From an uncultured Rikenellaceae bacterium (GTDB taxonomy: Bacteria > Bacteroidota > Bacteroidia > Bacteroidales > Rikenellaceae), in assembly GCA_949284665.1 (NCBI GenBank), contig CASDWR010000035.1:1-9557 (forward strand): DNA of 9,557 nt, in the 5' to 3' direction. This document shows positions 1 to 9,018 of this stretch, piece by piece (position 1 is the first letter of the stretch; every line of letters starts with the position of its first letter). The position numbers and the translations under genes are program-made. The notes under the pieces are model-generated. The model worked only from the letters and a program-made list of their open reading frames with translations, was not told the DNA's origin and searched no databases.

Positions 1-2517
1 AAAGTAAACGTGTTCATCGGCTGGGGTAGTAACGTACTTGATGGTCCTGCGTGAAGCATAGGCTTCTGCCGGATCGCGATACATTGTTGCATATGTTTCG
101 AAACCAGGAAGTTGCATCCATCCTTCGATCCGGTCGTGCAAGAGGGCGGCCGAATCTTCGTCACAGACAATACCCTGGGAGTTTTGACCGCTTGCCTTGC
201 CGTCGACCTTCGACTTGATGATTACACGCTTGAGCAACAAGACCTGTAACCTCTTTTGCATGTCGGACATTCCCGAAGGTGTGTTCATCCGTCGTGTAAG
301 GTGGGCGATCAGGTCGTCCGTCGCCTCTTCCACGGTGTATGGGTCTGCTGCCTTGGATGCGAACATGTCCAATGTCTGGACTGATTTCGAAAGTTGGTTG
401 GCCACTTGCCGTTGTACGTATTGGGCTACCGTCACGTAGCCGAAGCACTCTTTTGCAATGGGTTGTCCGTCGAGCCACGAAAGATTCTCCGCAATGTCCA
501 ATACTTCTTTCAACGCTTGTTTCTGTATGGCTTTCGGTACGACCGTGTAGGTTGAGGTGCGGTCGCTTTGGTAGTGCGTCGATTGATAAATACCTCCGAT
601 GTGGGCGATCAACGACATACAACAACTCTCCACCTGTTTCGCTACGTCGTCCAGTATGCCGACACGGTACGTGTAATCCGGATCATACGGTGACAGCCAC
701 TCGAGATCGTCGTCCAGGATACGTTTGAGATTTTCGATGCGGTATGATACGCTGCGGAATATGTCGTTTCCGGGGACAGCCGTCGAAATCCTCGGATCAA
801 AACGATAAAAGCGCTCTCCATACTGATAAAATGGGTCGTTGCATTTCCCGTCGATGATTTCGGAGAGTATATCGCGCTCCTGCTCTGGACTTTGAGCGTT
901 GACGGGTGTGTAAAGCCATCGAATGACATGCCGATCGTAGACCCCCGGGGCATCTGCGATCAATTTTACGCCGCGCTCCTTGTCTCCCGGTTGGGCAATC
1001 GTGTTGTAACAGCGTCCGGTGATGATGGTGGGACAGATCCCATAGCGTGCCGTGAACGTTGGAGAACGTAACGAGTCGGTCGGATAAGCCGTTGCCGCGG
1101 CATAGTTGGGCAATATGCCAAGCGTCATGCCGACCCTCCCCGCAATCGTTGCCGCTACTGCATTCTCAAACAACCGATCGGGAATGTCGTAAGCACGTAC
1201 ATCCGGATCAACGGCCGACAGATCCAGCCATAATTGCGAACGAATTCGTTCGGCGATGTTGAAGGGGACCATGATGGTCGATCCGATGATTTCGCCGCTG
1301 CGAGGATCGGTTGTGATAGCAGGCAGCGGTGTTGTGGAAGGAGAAGCCGTGAATCGAATCGTCGAGAGGGTGGGATCGGAAAGATCGAAAGACGGGTCAT
1401 CTTTCGGGAGCGGACGAGTCTGAAGCACCTCTTTCAGCCCGATCTCTTCGAAGGCCTCATTCCACATGAGTACACCCCGTTCGATTGCGGCGGCAAGAGG
1501 GGCGGGGAATGTGGTATCGATATAGAATACGATCGGCTTGATATGCCCTTCGGAATCGAAAATATTGCGTCGCATGGCAAAATAGTCGACTTTCGTCCCC
1601 TGTTCTTCAGCTGAAAAACGCCTGATGGCGGTCGGATAGAGACCGATCCGTTCATCGCACAATCGGGGTTTCATCGTCGTTTCAGGTAACAGGGAGATTG
1701 TTCTACGGGCCGTAATGGTCGTCGGTTGATCCTTGCGGATGTAGAAAAATCCAAGGATGGCGGTGGTCATGTCGAAAGAGAGTTCGCTCAATACCGACAC
1801 GTTCCCTCGTCCTGCCGCTATATCCTTGATGAAAGAGCGGTTCGCTTTGTACGATGCGGTGCTGACTCCAAAACCGGCATATGCATTCCCACCCCAATAG
1901 TCGATCGGTTGAATCTTTTTATTGGAACCGCTCCATAACGATGTCGCATCGAAAACCACGGCCGAACTGTCACGGTTGCAGGCTTCGATCTTAAATGCAT
2001 TTACGATCGGTGAAAGATGGCTTTTGGCGGCAGCTGTTCGCATCCCGGGATCGTCGTCCGTGGCGACCATCGGAGCGATTTCATGAAGATAAATCGTAGA
2101 ATCGGCCCGTGAAAAAGCTATGATGTAAGGTTCGGCCACTGGCTGCCCGGCATAGCCATCGCCCGAATCCGACGTGCTTTCGATACGGGTGGTGATGACC
2201 ATTTCTCTGTCTAACAGACTGTCAGGTAGTTCGATGTATAGTTTGTCCTCGATTTTGTGGAGAGTCAGAAAACTCGAAACACTTTTAGATTTTTTATCCT
2301 TGAAAAGTTTGTCGTAGGGAGTGGTTTTTTTCGGCGGGACCGGTTTCCCATCCTCCTTCCCCCGCTTTCCGTTAGCCGATTTATGCGTTGTCTTGCGACG
2401 GACTCCCTCATTGGCCGCCCAGGCCAAATCCGTCGATTCGGATGCGGTCATGGGACCGAGTGGAAGTAATAGACAGACGAGTATCGGCAGAATAAAGTAT
2501 GAATATCTGGTCTTCAT
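1..2517 (-). CDS. Secreted Met-zincin family paralogue with destroyed zinc site (pseudoprotease), 3' end cut by window
   Basis: I translated this by hand from the ATG at 2517-2515; 839 codons are open to the left edge with no stop, so the C-terminus lies outside. Residues 1-26 look like a Sec signal peptide without a lipobox. A basic linker (about 40-64) leads to the YDKLF motif (68-72) shared with the upstream gene, then a DUF5117-like region with FKIEACNRDSSA, and a DUF4953/Met-zincin-like region with WNEAFEEIG, TDPRSGEI, DSLRSPTFT, AQPGDKERGVKL and WLYTPV. Where the sister has HEVGHCLGYMHN, this protein has GRVGMTLGILPN (460-471), so all three His ligands and the catalytic Glu are gone. 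The Met-turn SIMDY is TIITG (497-501). An intact frame this long argues for a retained function rather than decay. I infer a non-catalytic periplasmic or surface partner, inhibitor or binding protein; the role is unknown. It lies 12 nt after the active sister and is probably co-transcribed. Confidence 0.88.
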   Translation of the reverse strand, partial: MKTRYSYFILPILVCLLLPLGPMTASESTDLAWAANEGVRRKTTHKSANGKRGKEDGKPVPPKKTTPYDKLFKDKKSKSVSSFLTLHKIEDKLYIELPDSLLDREMVITTRIESTSDSGDGYAGQPVAEPYIIAFSRADSTIYLHEIAPMVATDDDPGMRTAAAKSHLSPIVNAFKIEACNRDSSAVVFDATSLWSGSNKKIQPIDYWGGNAYAGFGVSTASYKANRSFIKDIAAGRGNVSVLSELSFDMTTAILGFFYIRKDQPTTITARRTISLLPETTMKPRLCDERIGLYPTAIRRFSAEEQGTKVDYFAMRRNIFDSEGHIKPIVFYIDTTFPAPLAAAIERGVLMWNEAFEEIGLKEVLQTRPLPKDDPSFDLSDPTLSTIRFTASPSTTPLPAITTDPRSGEIIGSTIMVPFNIAERIRSQLWLDLSAVDPDVRAYDIPDRLFENAVAATIAGRVGMTLGILPNYAAATAYPTDSLRSPTFTARYGICPTIITGRCYNTIAQPGDKERGVKLIADAPGVYDRHVIRWLYTPVNAQSPEQERDILSEIIDGKCNDPFYQYGERFYRFDPRISTAVPGNDIFRSVSYRIENLKRILDDDLEWLSPYDPDYTYRVGILDDVAKQVESCCMSLIAHIGGIYQSTHYQSDRTSTYTVVPKAIQKQALKEVLDIAENLSWLDGQPIAKECFGYVTVAQYVQRQVANQLSKSVQTLDMFASKAADPYTVEEATDDLIAHLTRRMNTPSGMSDMQKRLQVLLLKRVIIKSKVDGKASGQNSQGIVCDEDSAALLHDRIEGWMQLPGFETYATMYRDPAEAYASRRTIKYVTTPADEHVYF

Positions 2518-2529
2518 TGTTTCATCGTA

Positions 2530-5175
2530 TTATTTCGTCAGAGCCTTTTCGATATTTCGCAACAGGAGTTTGTAGTGTGCAGCTGTGGACCCGTTTGCCG
2601 AGCTTGCCTTGCTTTTCAGCAGCGACTGGAGTCGAAGTACCTCAGCGAAGTTGTCTCCTTCTGTACTTTCCCGCACCGAATAACGGGCGCGCGGAGCACC
2701 ATATCCGGAGATGGGGCCGTTGTTCGGAGTATCTGCCTCCGTATGACTCGTTACGGCGGAATGGGGATAACAACAGGTCAGAGCCCGTTCTCTTTGGGCC
2801 ACTTTTTCGAGAGATTCCGGTAAAATGAGCGAAAAATTGTCGATGTTTTTGTCATTCGGAGTACTGCCCGATCCCGTATATTGCAACCCGGCCGAAGCAC
2901 AGCGTGTCTTGACGTATTCGCGTTGGAGCATCATGTCCGTTTCGGTCAGATCCATCCCGCGCATGGTCGGGCCCCAAATTGCTTCGTATACCTCCTTGCG
3001 GCACTCTTGGGGAGTATAGGCCGATCCGTGTGCCAGTTCGGCGCTTGTCCATAACTTGTCGGGGGCGGTCACTACGGCCGATACAATCACCGGGAGCAAC
3101 GTGTTTTTCGGCGAACCCATCAACGGAAGATTCTGCATCAGTTCGGCGTTGTCGAGCCAGTCCATATCTCGCAACTGTGCCAATAAAAACCGTATTGCAC
3201 GGCGTTGCTTCTCAGCCGGAACACTTTCGTATGCTTTTACCGGATCGCCTTCCAATTTTTCGTTGAGGTAGATCCCTCCGACATTGGCATACACGTGTCC
3301 GATGTAACGGAAATATTGCATGATGATCGCATCGTAAATCTCTGCCCGATGGCTGTAATCTTTGTCTTCGTCGGCAAGCCACTGATTCATGTGGCGAAGG
3401 ATGTATTTCAAGTTTGCGATGCCGTATTCCGATGCCTGGATCGCATCATCACCCAAATCCTCGGTCTGTGATTTTGGGTCTATCGTGCTTATCAACTGTT
3501 GTTTGCCATAACGATAAACCGGATCTTCGATCGCATTGGTTATCCATTTCGAGGTGATTTCGTATTCTTCTTCGATTGTTTTCGCTCCATATACGGGAGT
3601 ATACAGCCACTTGACCGCAAAATAGTCGTATGTGCCGAAACGCGGCGGGGTAAGTTTGACGCCGCGTTCCCGGTCACCGGGTTGAGCTACATAATTGAAT
3701 CGGGCGTAATCCATGATGCTGGTCGTTGTCCCGTGTTGTCGGGTAAAGGAAGGAGAACGGAGCGAATCGACAGGGATGACCGATGATGCGCTCATGTTGT
3801 GCATGTAACCCAGGCAATGGCCTACTTCGTGCGATATCACATAGCGTAATCCGTCGCCCATGACTTCCTCGGGAATGTTTACTTTTCTTACCCGTTCGTC
3901 CGTCTGGGCCGTTTGTACGAAAAGCCAGTTGTTCAACAATTTGATTACATCATGGTATACGTAGACCGATGCATTCAGAATCTCTCCGCTGCGCGGGTCT
4001 ACCCAAGAGGGCCCCATGGCATTCTCGATGGCGATCGGTGCATAACGGATACACGAATATTTAATATTGTCCGGATCGAATTCAGGATCGTCGGTCGGAT
4101 AGGGCCTGGCTTCAACGGCGTTCTTGAAACCGATCCGTTCGAACGGTTCGTTCCATTGCAATACGGCTTCGAAAATGTAGGGTTTCCATTGTGCCGGGAA
4201 GTCGGAATCGATGTAAAATACGATCGGTTTGACGGGCGTCACTTTCTCTCCTCGGGCAAAAGCGGCCGAATCGGAAGGTTCGAGACGCCAACGGTTGGCG
4301 TAGTAGATGACACCGACTTTTTGGCGTTCGGTACTGAAAAGGTATTTTCCGGTCGGGAAAACTGCCATGCGGCTATCCACACGACGCGGACGATATGGAA
4401 TCTTGTCGAGCAATACCAGCGATCGCGTCATGACAGCTGTCAGGGGTTTGTTCTCAATCAGCGTCGTTTTCCCTCGCCGAACCGTGAAATCGTAGCTGAG
4501 GGTACTCCGTATCATTACATTGTCGCTGAATGATTTGAACTCTCTGATAAACGAACGGTCCTTTTGGAAGGTGCGAGTCGGAGTGTAACGTGCATAAACT
4601 CCGTAATCCGAAAATGGAGACATCTCTTTGTCGTCACCTGCGAAAAGGGTCGTAACATCGAAAACCGATGCCGAACTGTCCCGGTTGTAAGCCTCGATCT
4701 TGAAATTGTAAATGATGGGCGCCAAGGTGTTTTTGCGGATCGCCTCCGTCAGGTCTCCCGACGGGTCGGAGTCGACGGTTACGTCGGAATTGATTTGGCG
4801 GAGTTGAATGTTTTCACCGCTCCGTGTGAAAAGGATGTGGCGGGGATCGCCTGATTTGGAACCGACGATACCCGAATAATTATCCGAAATTTCGGTAATG
4901 GTCGACCCCAACAACATCTCACGTCCCAACAGCGAATCGGGAAACTCGAAATAGAGTTTGCCTTTTACCTTGTGAATGGCGATCATGCCCGTTGTGTCGG
5001 CTTCGTGTTTTTCGCCGAACAGTTTGTCGTAAGCGCTCGGTTTGGGCTTGTCTGCAGCCTCTACCTCGGTTTTGCGTGATGTCTTCTTTCCGTTCGTCCG
5101 AACTTTCGGACGGGCCTCGGTCAGCGAGACGGAAACAGAGGCCAGCAGTAGAAGTACGAATAGTTTCTTAATCAT
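2530..5175 (-). CDS. Secreted zinc-dependent metalloprotease (DUF5118/DUF5117/DUF4953, Met-zincin type)
   Basis: The 881-aa protein starts with a Sec signal peptide (MIKKLFVLLLLASVSVSLTEA, probable cleavage after Ala21, no lipobox), so it should be exported to the periplasm or beyond. A charged linker (about 22-47) precedes a DUF5118-like stretch with YDKLF (49-53) and FPDSLLGREML. A DUF5117-like region follows, with FKIEAYNRDSSASVFD near 158-173. The catalytic Met-zincin-like region has WNEPFERIGF (341-350), VDPRSGEIL, the zinc site HEVGHCLGYMHN (449-460; ligands His449, His453 and His459, catalytic Glu450) and the Met-turn SIMDY (486-490), then AQPGDRERGVKL and WLYTPV. The C-terminal part is mostly helical by eye. 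An AGGA lies 4 nt before the ATG. The family is annotated as zinc-dependent metalloproteases; substrates are not known to me. It is first in a minus-strand pair with the inactive paralogue. Confidence 0.93.
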   Translation of the reverse strand: MIKKLFVLLLLASVSVSLTEARPKVRTNGKKTSRKTEVEAADKPKPSAYDKLFGEKHEADTTGMIAIHKVKGKLYFEFPDSLLGREMLLGSTITEISDNYSGIVGSKSGDPRHILFTRSGENIQLRQINSDVTVDSDPSGDLTEAIRKNTLAPIIYNFKIEAYNRDSSASVFDVTTLFAGDDKEMSPFSDYGVYARYTPTRTFQKDRSFIREFKSFSDNVMIRSTLSYDFTVRRGKTTLIENKPLTAVMTRSLVLLDKIPYRPRRVDSRMAVFPTGKYLFSTERQKVGVIYYANRWRLEPSDSAAFARGEKVTPVKPIVFYIDSDFPAQWKPYIFEAVLQWNEPFERIGFKNAVEARPYPTDDPEFDPDNIKYSCIRYAPIAIENAMGPSWVDPRSGEILNASVYVYHDVIKLLNNWLFVQTAQTDERVRKVNIPEEVMGDGLRYVISHEVGHCLGYMHNMSASSVIPVDSLRSPSFTRQHGTTTSIMDYARFNYVAQPGDRERGVKLTPPRFGTYDYFAVKWLYTPVYGAKTIEEEYEITSKWITNAIEDPVYRYGKQQLISTIDPKSQTEDLGDDAIQASEYGIANLKYILRHMNQWLADEDKDYSHRAEIYDAIIMQYFRYIGHVYANVGGIYLNEKLEGDPVKAYESVPAEKQRRAIRFLLAQLRDMDWLDNAELMQNLPLMGSPKNTLLPVIVSAVVTAPDKLWTSAELAHGSAYTPQECRKEVYEAIWGPTMRGMDLTETDMMLQREYVKTRCASAGLQYTGSGSTPNDKNIDNFSLILPESLEKVAQRERALTCCYPHSAVTSHTEADTPNNGPISGYGAPRARYSVRESTEGDNFAEVLRLQSLLKSKASSANGSTAAHYKLLLRNIEKALTK

Positions 5176-5673: not shown

Positions 5674-6558
5674 ATGTCTGAAATCTATGACGACAAGGTA
5701 ACGCGAAATATAAAACCCGACTGGCTCAAAATCAGGCTCCACCACGATGATGGGTATGCCGATGTGGCAAGGATTGTCGAAAAACATACACTCCATACCA
5801 TTTGTGAGAGTGGCCGATGTCCGAACAAAGCGGAGTGTTGGAGTAAGCGTACGGCAACCTTTATGATTTTGGGCGATGTGTGCACACGTTCCTGTCGGTT
5901 CTGTGCTACTGCTTCGGGTAGGCCGTTGCCTCCGGACAAAGGCGAACCTCAAGGTGTCGCCGACTCCATCCGGCTGATGGGGTTAAAACATGCCGTGATT
6001 ACCTCCGTGACCAGGGATGACCTGCCCGACGGGGGTGCTTCTCATTGGGCAGAAACGATTCGTGCCGTTCGTAACACCAATCCGAACACGACCATCGAGG
6101 TACTGATCCCCGATTTTGACGGGCAGGGAAAATGGATCGATACCGTCCTCGATGCGAATCCCGACATTGTCGGTCATAATATCGAGACGGTGGAGCGTTT
6201 GACACCGTTGGTGCGGTCGCGTGCGCAATATCGCACCTCACTCCATACGTTACGTTATATGGCTGATCGCGGTGCCTTGACTAAAAGCGGCCTGATGCTC
6301 GGTCTGGGAGAAAACGAAACGGAGATCATGCGGACTCTCGACGATTTGGCCGAGGCCGGGTGTCGTATTGTGACGATGGGGCAGTATCTGCGCCCTACAT
6401 TGAAACACTATCCGGTGGCCGAATACGTTACTCCTGAGAAATTTGCAGAATATCGGGATCGTGCATTGGCAAAGGGTTTCGCTTATGTGGCCAGTGCACC
6501 GTTGGTCCGTTCTTCCTATTTGGCGGAAGAGGCATTGAAGGCGTGTGGTGAAATATGA
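5674..6558 (+). CDS. lipA: Lipoyl synthase (radical SAM)
   Basis: LipA inserts two sulfur atoms at C6 and C8 of protein-bound octanoyl groups, completing lipoyl cofactors of the 2-oxoacid dehydrogenase complexes and the glycine cleavage H protein, in the cytoplasm. The 294-aa product is of normal family length. It has the LipA-specific auxiliary cluster motif CX4CX5C (Cys44, Cys49, Cys55), inside CESGRCPNKAEC, and the radical SAM motif CX3CX2C (Cys70, Cys74, Cys77), inside CTRSCRFC. The C-terminal RSSY (279-282) holds the conserved serine that ligates the auxiliary cluster. Other family landmarks are TSVTRDDLPDGGA, VGHNIETV, KSGLMLGLGE and MGQYLRP. The ATG at 5674 follows a good promoter and gives the usual N-terminus ending in KPDWLKIR. 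lipB follows 17 nt after the stop. All key residues are present. Confidence 0.98.
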   Translation: MSEIYDDKVTRNIKPDWLKIRLHHDDGYADVARIVEKHTLHTICESGRCPNKAECWSKRTATFMILGDVCTRSCRFCATASGRPLPPDKGEPQGVADSIRLMGLKHAVITSVTRDDLPDGGASHWAETIRAVRNTNPNTTIEVLIPDFDGQGKWIDTVLDANPDIVGHNIETVERLTPLVRSRAQYRTSLHTLRYMADRGALTKSGLMLGLGENETEIMRTLDDLAEAGCRIVTMGQYLRPTLKHYPVAEYVTPEKFAEYRDRALAKGFAYVASAPLVRSSYLAEEALKACGEI

Positions 6559-6575
6559 TATGAAATGAAAAAGGT

Positions 6576-7268
6576 ATGGAAGAGGTGATTTATAAAGATC
6601 TGGGGATGATCGATTATGCCGAGTGCTGGGAACGGCAACGGAACCTCTTCGATGCACTGCTGAAAGGGAAAAGAGAGAATCGGCCTGCAGAACAATACCT
6701 GTTGCTGTGCGAGCATCCGGCCGTATATACGTTGGGCAAAAGCGGTTCTGAAACCAATTTGCTGGTGGATGAAAGTTTTTTGCGCAACCGGGGAGCAGCC
6801 TTTTATCGTATCGATCGGGGTGGGGACATCACTTTCCATGGACCCGGTCAGGTGGTAGGATACCCGATTCTCGACCTTGAACGTGAAAAGATAGGGTTGA
6901 AGGATTACATTCATGCGCTGGAGCAGGCGATAATCGATACGGCAGCCGAATTCGGAGTGGTGTGTGGACGGTGTGAAAGTGCTGCGGGAGTATGGCTCCA
7001 CAATGGGTCCGAATGGCGGAAAATCTGTGCAATCGGAGTACGCAGTTCGCGTTTCGTGACGATGCATGGCTTTGCCCTGAATGTGAATACGGACCTCTCG
7101 TGGTTCGATTTGATTAATCCTTGCGGATTCCGTGATCGGGGGACAACCTCCCTGGCACGGGAGACGGGAACGACGATAAACCTCGAAGAGGTCAAGCGAA
7201 GGCTCGTCATACAATTGGGAAAGAATATAGATGTTAAAATAAAATATATTGAAGATTATGCCGATTGA
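6576..7268 (+). CDS. lipB: Octanoyl-[acyl-carrier-protein]:protein N-octanoyltransferase
   Basis: LipB transfers octanoate from acyl-carrier protein to the lipoyl-domain lysine of target proteins, providing the substrate for LipA encoded just upstream. The 230-aa product has the family blocks in order: LCEHPAVYTLGKSG (44-57), the signature RGGDITFHGPGQVVGYPILDL (81-101), KICAIGV with the catalytic Lys149, HGFALNVNTDL, and FDLINPCG with the catalytic Cys183. Length is within the usual range. The ATG at 6576 is kept because the residues that follow, VIYKDLGMIDY, match the conserved LipB N-terminus; a later ATG at 6606 would remove it. The 3' end overlaps recJ by 11 nt. No LplA-type ligase is visible in the window. 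Confidence 0.97.
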   Translation: MEEVIYKDLGMIDYAECWERQRNLFDALLKGKRENRPAEQYLLLCEHPAVYTLGKSGSETNLLVDESFLRNRGAAFYRIDRGGDITFHGPGQVVGYPILDLEREKIGLKDYIHALEQAIIDTAAEFGVVCGRCESAAGVWLHNGSEWRKICAIGVRSSRFVTMHGFALNVNTDLSWFDLINPCGFRDRGTTSLARETGTTINLEEVKRRLVIQLGKNIDVKIKYIEDYAD

Positions 7269-9018
7269 AAAACGTTGGGTAATCAAGCCCCAGGGAGACC
7301 GGACTACGGTGATGCGACTTGCTGCCGAGTTAGGGATTCCGGAGGTGCTTGCGAACCTGTTGGTACAAAGAGGCATAACGACTTCCGGTGAGGCTTCGGG
7401 GTTTTTCAATCCCAAACTTTCCGACTTGCACGACCCGTTTTTGATGCAGGATATGTACAAGGCCGTGCAACGTGTAGACGAAGCGGTCACGCGTGGTGAA
7501 AAGATCATGGTCTATGGAGACTACGATGTGGATGGAACCACGGCGGTAGCGTTGGTTTACACATTCCTGCGTAAGATCGGGCATACGAACCTGATATTCT
7601 ATATCCCGGACCGATATACCGAAGGATATGGAATTTCGATCAAGGGAATCGATTATGCAAAGCGCAAGGGAGTATCGCTCGTGATTGCGCTCGACTGCGG
7701 GATTAAAGCTACCGAGAAAGTCGCTTATGCGGCCCTTCAGGGCGTGGATTTCATTATCTGCGACCACCATCTGCCTGGAGATACGATTCCCGAGGCGGTT
7801 GCCGTACTCGACCCGAAACGACCGGATTGCAACTATCCGTTCGATGAATTGTCGGGTTGTGGAGTGGGATTCAAACTGGTGCAGGGGTATTGCCAGTACA
7901 AGCATATCCCGTTTGAGGAGATCGAATCATTGCTCGATCTGGTTGTAGTTAGCACGGCTGCCGATATTGTGCCGCTCGTGGGAGAGAATCGTGTCTTGGC
8001 TTATTACGGTTTGTTGAGGTTGAACGAAAAACCCCGGAAGGGCTTGCAGTCCATTATCCGAATATGCGGGTTGGAAGGGCACCAGATTACCATCGACGAT
8101 ATCGTGTTCAAGATCGGTCCCCGTATCAATGCTGCCGGGCGTATGGCGGTGGACCATGATGGGGAGCATGCTGTCCCGTCCGGCGGTCATTCGGCGGTCA
8201 ATCTGCTTATCGAACGTGACGAAAATGCGGCTGAAGAGTTCGGTAACTTTATCGACACTTGCAATCAGGACCGGAAGAATATCGACCGATCGGTAACCCA
8301 GGAGGCTCATGATTATATCGAGAGTAATCCTGAATTGAAATCACTCAAAAGTACCGTAATCTACAACCCGAAGTGGATGAAGGGAATTGTGGGTATCGTG
8401 GCTTCCCGGTTGATCGAGACTTACTATCGGCCCACAGTGGTATTGACCATGAGCAACGGTTATGTGACCGGTTCTGCCCGTTCGGTCCCGGGGTTCGATC
8501 TCTACCAGGCTGTTGAGTCGTGTGCCGACCTGTTGGAAAATTTTGGCGGCCACATGTACGCGGCAGGTTTGACCATGAAACCCGAAAAGGTGGAGGAGTT
8601 CATGCGCCGTTTTAATGCTTATGTCGAAGAACATATCGATCCTCAGATGCTTATACCGCAGGTCGACATCGACTCGGAGTTGCTTTTCAGCGATATAACC
8701 CCTTCGTTTCGGGCGACCCTGGCGGCGTTCCAGCCTTTCGGCCCGGGAAACAACGCGCCCGTATTCGTAACACGCGGTGTCAGCAATCGCGGGGATGCAA
8801 AACTGGTTGGAGCCGAACATGAGCACCTGCGTATGGATTTGACACAGAAGCAGAAACCCAATACGACCATTGCGTCGATCGCTTTTCAGCAGCCGACCCA
8901 TTACAAGTGGGTCAAAAGTGGGCGACCGATCGATGTTTGCTATTGTGTTGTGGAGAACCACTATCGGGGCGTTACAACACCGCAACTGCGTATCAAGGAT
9001 ATCAAGATCGATATCTGA
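7258..9018 (+). CDS. recJ: Single-stranded-DNA-specific exonuclease RecJ
   Basis: RecJ is a 5'-3' single-strand DNA exonuclease used in recombination and in mismatch and base excision repair. I start it at the ATG at 7258 (586 aa); an in-frame TTG at 7249 would add three residues. With the ATG numbering, DHH-family motifs are all present: DYDVDG (88-93), LDCG (145-148), DHH (169-171) and ADIVPL (235-240). The DHHA1 region has INAAGRM (290-296), KGIVGIVASRL, GSARSVPG and GGHMYAAGLT with GGH at 430-432. The C-terminal OB-like region contains FGPGNNAP (494-501). Length is close to the roughly 580 aa typical of bacterial RecJ. After INAAGRM there is a short extra stretch (about 297-313) rich in His, Asp and Gly that I do not recall from the usual sequence. 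The start overlaps the lipB stop by 11 nt, suggesting coupled translation. Confidence 0.96.
   Translation: MPIEKRWVIKPQGDRTTVMRLAAELGIPEVLANLLVQRGITTSGEASGFFNPKLSDLHDPFLMQDMYKAVQRVDEAVTRGEKIMVYGDYDVDGTTAVALVYTFLRKIGHTNLIFYIPDRYTEGYGISIKGIDYAKRKGVSLVIALDCGIKATEKVAYAALQGVDFIICDHHLPGDTIPEAVAVLDPKRPDCNYPFDELSGCGVGFKLVQGYCQYKHIPFEEIESLLDLVVVSTAADIVPLVGENRVLAYYGLLRLNEKPRKGLQSIIRICGLEGHQITIDDIVFKIGPRINAAGRMAVDHDGEHAVPSGGHSAVNLLIERDENAAEEFGNFIDTCNQDRKNIDRSVTQEAHDYIESNPELKSLKSTVIYNPKWMKGIVGIVASRLIETYYRPTVVLTMSNGYVTGSARSVPGFDLYQAVESCADLLENFGGHMYAAGLTMKPEKVEEFMRRFNAYVEEHIDPQMLIPQVDIDSELLFSDITPSFRATLAAFQPFGPGNNAPVFVTRGVSNRGDAKLVGAEHEHLRMDLTQKQKPNTTIASIAFQQPTHYKWVKSGRPIDVCYCVVENHYRGVTTPQLRIKDIKIDI

Follow-up and report, generated by a model that had tools for sequence, protein, structure and literature searches.

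A Met-zincin paralogue without a zinc site was found to belong to a two-gene unit, in which it is encoded beside an active paralogue. This twin-gene arrangement is recurrent and conserved in Bacteroidales, and a literature search on such pairing of an active and an inactive member found no earlier description of it. The window, i.e., the whole stretch of DNA analysed here, is an entire contig of 9557 bases (G000:C35), which comes from an incomplete genome (77% complete, 1.89 Mb, 281 contigs). A sequence-only reading of this stretch had noted the replaced zinc site and interpreted the protein as a family member selected for a non-catalytic role. The observation was confirmed and the interpretation is supported, site-less relatives being present in several Bacteroidales genera. 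The two-gene unit was not visible to that reading.

The inactive paralogue and its active neighbour

The minus strand of the window carries two tandem paralogues, with the active Met-zincin upstream, the inactive copy downstream and a gap of 12 nt between them. Three further genes, which we take to be lipA, lipB and recJ, are encoded on the plus strand. The features of the window are as follows:

1..2517, minus strand: inactive Met-zincin paralogue with the domains DUF5118-DUF5117-DUF4953 (ORF and Pfam); signal-peptide-like N-terminus, C-terminus off the contig
1015..1029, minus strand: former Met-turn, TIITG replacing SIMDY (alignment)
1105..1140, minus strand: former zinc-site helix, GRVGMTLGILPN replacing HExxHxxGxxHN (alignment; helix in the AF2 model)
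1288..1308, minus strand: DPRSGEI block, kept in the inactive protein (sequence comparison)
2530..5175, minus strand: active partner gene, 881 aa, same three domains (ORF and Pfam)
3706..3720, minus strand: intact Met-turn of the active partner, SIMDY (alignment)
3796..3831, minus strand: intact zinc site of the active partner, HEVGHCLGYMHN (alignment)
within 5674-9018, plus strand: radical-SAM, lipoyl-ligase-type and RecJ-type genes, divergent from the protease pair

The frame of the inactive copy begins with an ATG at position 2517 and stays open through base 1. The 839 codons counted earlier are therefore correct as a minimum, since the frame reaches the contig end. A fuller copy of the same protein (P0001, 879 aa, 100% identical after rounding) was found in another assembly. 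The alignment of the two paralogues of the window bore out the claim that every zinc residue is replaced and the Met-turn is changed. In the numbering of the window's active protein, which is used throughout, H449, E450, H453 and H459 are replaced by G, R, M and P. The inactive protein retains none of the three histidines of HExxHxxGxxH and no glutamate, and its Met-turn lacks the methionine. Since many related proteins have lost the site as well, the loss is neither a chance event nor a sequencing error.

Both paralogues matched DUF4953 (PF16313, 'Met-zincin'), DUF5117 and DUF5118 over the cut-offs. For DUF4953, the score was 193.7 bits for the inactive protein and 344.4 bits for the active one. 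The inactive protein scored 115.3 bits against DUF5117 and 48.6 bits against DUF5118 (curated cut-offs of 24.2, 27 and 27 for DUF4953, DUF5117 and DUF5118, respectively). NCBIfam gave no match for either protein. The DUF4953/DUF5117/DUF5118 proteins of Bacteroidota (PF16313, PF17148, PF17162) have the same domain order and full-length homology to the window protein. Some of their records are named 'zinc-dependent metalloprotease', and no paper naming DUF4953, DUF5117, PF16313 or PF17148 was found in the literature search. Both proteins of the pair have signal-peptide-like N-termini, and a lipobox is rare.

The fold had been thought to be probably intact, and a high-confidence AF2 model of P0001 (pLDDT 83) likewise predicts that it is kept. 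In this model, the former zinc block forms a helix at residues 447-465 (block pLDDT 97/96). Foldseek with the model of the inactive protein returned no match under an E-value of 0.001. In a phmmer search against solved structures, the best match of the inactive protein was to an antibody chain (E 0.06), and the active protein gave one weak match, to a metzincin (E 0.027). The conserved blocks which had been named around the site are indeed kept, but the NAMGPSW block, which active members conserve just before DPRSGEI, has disappeared along with the zinc site.

Tandem pairs in Bacteroidales and their proposed function

The protein database search with the inactive protein gave 1605 matches from the 7995 scored candidates that share most words, and the best 120 were analysed. 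The site was readable in 118 of these, with HExxHxxxxxH absent from 71 and present in 47. The 71 include P0001, which is the window's own protein, and P0070, a borderline case with HQxxH and Asn at the third ligand. The 48 matches that follow P0001 among the best 120 (P0002-P0049) are all site-less and are 37-44% identical to the inactive protein over the aligned part. One of them, P0002 (1115 aa), has a long internal repeat, which is a genuine partial duplication or else an artefact of the assembly.

A census of family loci was made from 60 relatives, 198 genomes of the order, 150 genomes of the family and 15 named loci, together with all copies in 11 genomes. A second draw covered 392 genomes of the order with a profile built from inactive copies only, and at most two candidates were scored per genome. 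The draws overlap, and those of the named loci and of the family were searched with inactive proteins; duplicates were removed. In Bacteroidales loci, 170 ORFs with HExxHxxxxxH and 42 ORFs without it were obtained, together with 12 fragments in which the site could not be read. Batch 1 contributed 172 ORFs (128 with and 37 without the site, plus 7 fragments), batch 2 a further 46 (39, 5 and 2) and batch 3 a further 6 (3, 0 and 3). Unlike the 170 active ORFs, which keep HExxHxxxxxH, the inactive protein of the window keeps neither the motif nor the Met-turn. Our statements on inactive copies refer to Bacteroidales; the phylum-wide search recorded the presence of the family with sites unread and found DUF4953 in at least 152 of 296 genomes.

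All 42 inactive ORFs (37/37 and 5/5) adjoin another DUF4953 ORF on the same strand, at a distance of up to 70 bases or with an overlap, frames being taken from stop to stop, which overstates overlaps. Directly beside a readable HExxH ORF were 40 of the 42, and the window shows the same layout. At L117 (6274-8975), the neighbour of the inactive ORF seems to be part of an HExxH gene that a frameshift has split. At L036 (10482-13119), the inactive gene itself looks split by a frame change, and its first piece lies 3 bases from the HExxH ORF. For 115 of the 170 active ORFs, some of which reach contig edges, there was no family neighbour in the fetched DNA. The difference in adjacency, 42/42 for inactive versus at most 55/167 for active ORFs (counts before batch 3), corresponds to a Fisher p of 2e-17; the test takes no account of relatedness, and a few of the 55 are fragments that belong to one and the same broken gene. 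Arrays consisting of active copies only were seen in L118 (two copies), L142 (three) and L229 (two). In most pairs, the active gene precedes the inactive one; the inactive gene comes first in L044, L045, L144 and L228, and the order alternates in L037. The pair L038 is that of Bacteroides faecis and L039 that of B. xylanisolvens.

To describe what the inactive copies lose and keep, 31 inactive rows of clade I (see below) were compared with 33 paired active rows. Among 101 sites with a fixation of 97% or more in the paired actives, the inactive copies keep 36 (at ≥80%) and lose 24 (<20%). Sixteen of the lost sites fall in the zinc helix (445-459; Y445, V446, H449, E450, H453, M458 and H459), the strand 385-390 and the Met-turn (490-492); the remaining eight are dispersed. 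The excess divergence of the inactive side, determined for 28 matched pairs, peaks at residues 361-420, 441-460 and 481-500, i.e., at the cleft and the active site, which indicates that the cleft was released more than the rest of the protein. The conservation of residues 361-380 falls from 0.84 in active to 0.32 in inactive copies. Residues 41-60 at the start of DUF5118, which correspond to residues 60-78 of the inactive protein, are equally conserved in active and inactive copies (0.46 and 0.46), and this start of DUF5118 is a candidate contact segment. A search for a motif specific to inactive copies revealed four weak positions and no strong motif.

The lost site, the tandem layout, the co-inheritance, the selection and the release of the cleft are observations, and on them we favour, with confidence a little above even, the reading that the inactive protein is a non-catalytic partner in an obligate protease of two proteins, in which the adjacent active paralogue would cut. 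We infer mutual binding of the two proteins, most likely as a hetero-oligomer located in the periplasm or further out. The active subunit would cut, and the inactive one would shape, feed or control it, providing structure, substrate capture or control, possibly via its N-terminal DUF5118 segment. The complex would be exported, and the peptides it handles would be associated with the SusC/SusD importers found beside most pairs. Against this subunit reading stand the faster evolution and mostly higher dN/dS of the inactive side, the lack of a strong motif in it, its absence from congeners, the existence of unpaired actives and the split member in two pairs.

The nearest known arrangement is, by analogy, the M16B alpha/beta pair, which has an unrelated fold; the window protein does not belong to M16. 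M16B peptidases (the mitochondrial processing peptidase and prokaryotic two-gene pairs) combine a live zinc subunit with a homologue that lacks the zinc motif, and the bacterial pairs are encoded by a two-gene operon (PMC11266112). The pairs described here resemble them in having tandem genes for an active member and a zinc-less homologue. They differ in their metzincin-type domain with DUF5117/DUF5118, in their HExxH motif, in their predicted export and in their occurrence in Bacteroidales, mostly beside SusCD genes, whereas M16B enzymes carry HxxEH on another fold. In the active partner, neither an M16 domain nor HxxEH was found, and Pfam gave DUF4953, DUF5117 and DUF5118 only. The same account lists the inactive ADAMs of animals as metzincin pseudopeptidases (PMC11266112). 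As described there, these too are related to metzincins, have had their catalytic residues replaced and are retained for non-catalytic roles, but they are animal, multidomain proteins. We know of no inactive ADAM whose gene lies in tandem with that of an active partner.

The same adjacency and co-inheritance and the loss of the cleft would also be expected if the inactive copy were a dedicated inhibitor or folding helper, binding the live protease transiently and silencing or chaperoning it until export or until substrate is met. The frames of the partners touch or overlap in many pairs, which would fit balanced co-translation of such a helper. We consider this alternative unlikely, though a serious one, as the inactive copies keep the three-domain architecture and the 36 fixed core sites, which is more than an inhibitor seems to need.

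Genomic neighbourhood of the pairs

Matches to SusC or SusD were found by tblastn in the fetched stretch near 34 of the 39 pair loci. They lie on the strand of the pair in 32 loci and on the opposite strand in L113 and L115. This survey gave no SusC/SusD match at L037, L117, L130, L138 and L226; L130 has little upstream DNA. Many pair loci also contain DUF4843 and PKD-like genes, neighbour families being assigned with Pfam on representatives in L038, L041, L044 and L109 (two PKD_2 matches are below the Pfam cut-off). The window itself shows no SusCD gene beside its pair up to the contig end. The frequent SusC/SusD neighbours are what would be expected if the inactive copy worked apart from the protease, binding peptides or proteins as a part of SusCD import, with adjacency reflecting the operon only. 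We regard that as improbable, since the residues of the substrate strand are lost and the partner protease is present at all five pair loci without a SusC/SusD match. Unpaired actives are often located beside SusC-cluster genes too, so the SusCD link belongs to the family and not to the inactive partner alone.

The inactive gene was absent from all 22 congeneric genomes searched, four of which contain a single active copy. The four congeners that were inspected (L263-L266) have the lipA-lipB-recJ block but lack the protease pair beside it, and one of them, G012, has its single active copy elsewhere in the genome. Here, the pair is therefore an accessory unit that few lineages have gained or retained. 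The RecJ of the window is 77-83% identical to the RecJ found in 21 of the 22 congeners, which shows that the contig belongs to the genus. The sequence-only reading had looked to orthologues with an intact frame and the same GRVGM string. Site-less relatives with open frames do exist, but the string varies (ARRAAS, ARHTGA, TREVGA, etc. in other inactive lineages), and the absence from the congeners weakens a simple orthologue story.

The genome of the window contains a second pair (G000:C160, L141, 1-3799), which consists of a HEIGH copy followed by another family member. Of the latter, the first 369 codons are present, and it is cut by the contig end before the zinc site, so that its class is unreadable. 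In the same genome, the three active copies of L142 (G000:C93, 5567-12679) lie in a row downstream of SusC- and SusD-cluster genes.

Phylogeny, selection and variation at the zinc site

A tree of 102 rows was built with a quick method (SH-aLRT only), with the motif columns excluded and 22 random unpaired actives included. In this tree, the inactive copies need three changes. Clade I consists of 31 inactive copies and stands beside a clade of paired actives, clade II consists of three (Prevotella, Hoylesella and one further genome) beside their own partners, and clade III consists of two. In the AU test on a 47-row subset, a single clade of all inactive copies was rejected (p 0.007), and thus a single origin; of two groupings named after seeing the tree, I+II was rejected (p 0.007) and I+III was not (p 0.38). 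Since the test rejects one inactive clade and not I+III, we claim at least two origins and not three, and the trees support inactivation on at least two occasions.

The trees of the active and inactive members of 28 clade I pairs share 23 of 25 splits (maximum of 4 in 2000 permutations). The correlation of their distances is 0.915, and none of 10,000 permutations gave a value as high (maximum 0.29). The distances between inactive copies are 2.0 times those between active ones. Co-inheritance follows from linkage; the mirror trees show that the unit is unbroken and are no proof of binding. In a FastTree of 204 rows, the group of paired actives contains three unpaired rows (L042, L140 and L225). 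The main clade of paired actives is well supported and contains a single unpaired row, L042, whose contig ends inside the gene. L140 and L225 are unpaired actives at the poorly resolved base of the group, beside the active-only array L118.

More broadly, the pairs may represent a class of obligate hetero-subunit metzincin proteases in Bacteroidales, in which an active and an inactive copy have stayed locked to each other after an ancient duplication, invented at least twice and plugged into SusCD-type importers. We hold this broader proposal tentatively, at somewhat less than even confidence. Another metallopeptidase fold that reached such a pairing at least twice would mark the arrangement as a general solution. 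The proposal also provides a large family of uncharacterised proteases, encoded beside Bacteroidales nutrient importers, with a role that can be tested, and it cautions against annotating both members of a pair as zinc-dependent proteases.

The selection inferred earlier for the window's protein agrees with the dN/dS values of the inactive genes of relatives (0.04-0.30 in nine comparisons) and with frames of at least 715 codons in 40 of the 42 inactive copies. The single values for the inactive genes were 0.179, 0.116, 0.091, 0.128, 0.044, 0.197, 0.134, 0.199 and 0.299, and those for their partners, in the same order, were 0.116, 0.049, 0.000, 0.169, 0.043, 0.177, 0.083, 0.119 and 0.137, as determined by the Nei-Gojobori method on stop-to-stop frames with several synonymous distances near saturation. 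The inactive gene exceeded its partner in eight of the nine comparisons, in which L115 and L116 were each used twice and the inactive gene of L114 is cut at 596 codons. The genes compared are at most about 41% identical to the inactive protein of the window and come from species other than its own. Judged by these values (0.044-0.299), the inactive genes of relatives are under purifying selection and are conserved without catalytic residues. An ordinary tandem duplication with one decaying copy would explain the faster evolution of the inactive side, the split member in two pairs (L036 and L117) and the internal stops in other family copies (G027), but we rejected it as very improbable on the dN/dS well under 1 and the deep mirror-image trees, with the long frames and at least two independent inactivations also against it.

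All three zinc histidines are absent from 39 of the 42 inactive copies; one is retained in three copies, and two in no copy. The first ligand position is occupied by Arg in 23 copies, Gln in 7, Trp in 5 and Lys in 3, and the replacements vary widely across the copies. The structural Gly456 is kept in 42/42 and Asn460 in 40/42. The Glu position is kept in 11 copies and the methionine of the Met-turn in 19. These remnants, with the three single histidines, are what could be cited for a site rebuilt from other residues that binds metal or cuts; such a site is hardly credible given the loss of all histidines in most copies, the variety of the replacements and a window protein without His, Glu and Met. 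The copies with one histidine (L044, 7845-10400; L226, 8212-10851; L144, 4200-6812) are possibly less advanced stages of loss. The frequent Arg at the first ligand position (23 of 42) contrasts with the wide variation at the other ligand positions, and its charge perhaps substitutes for the metal.
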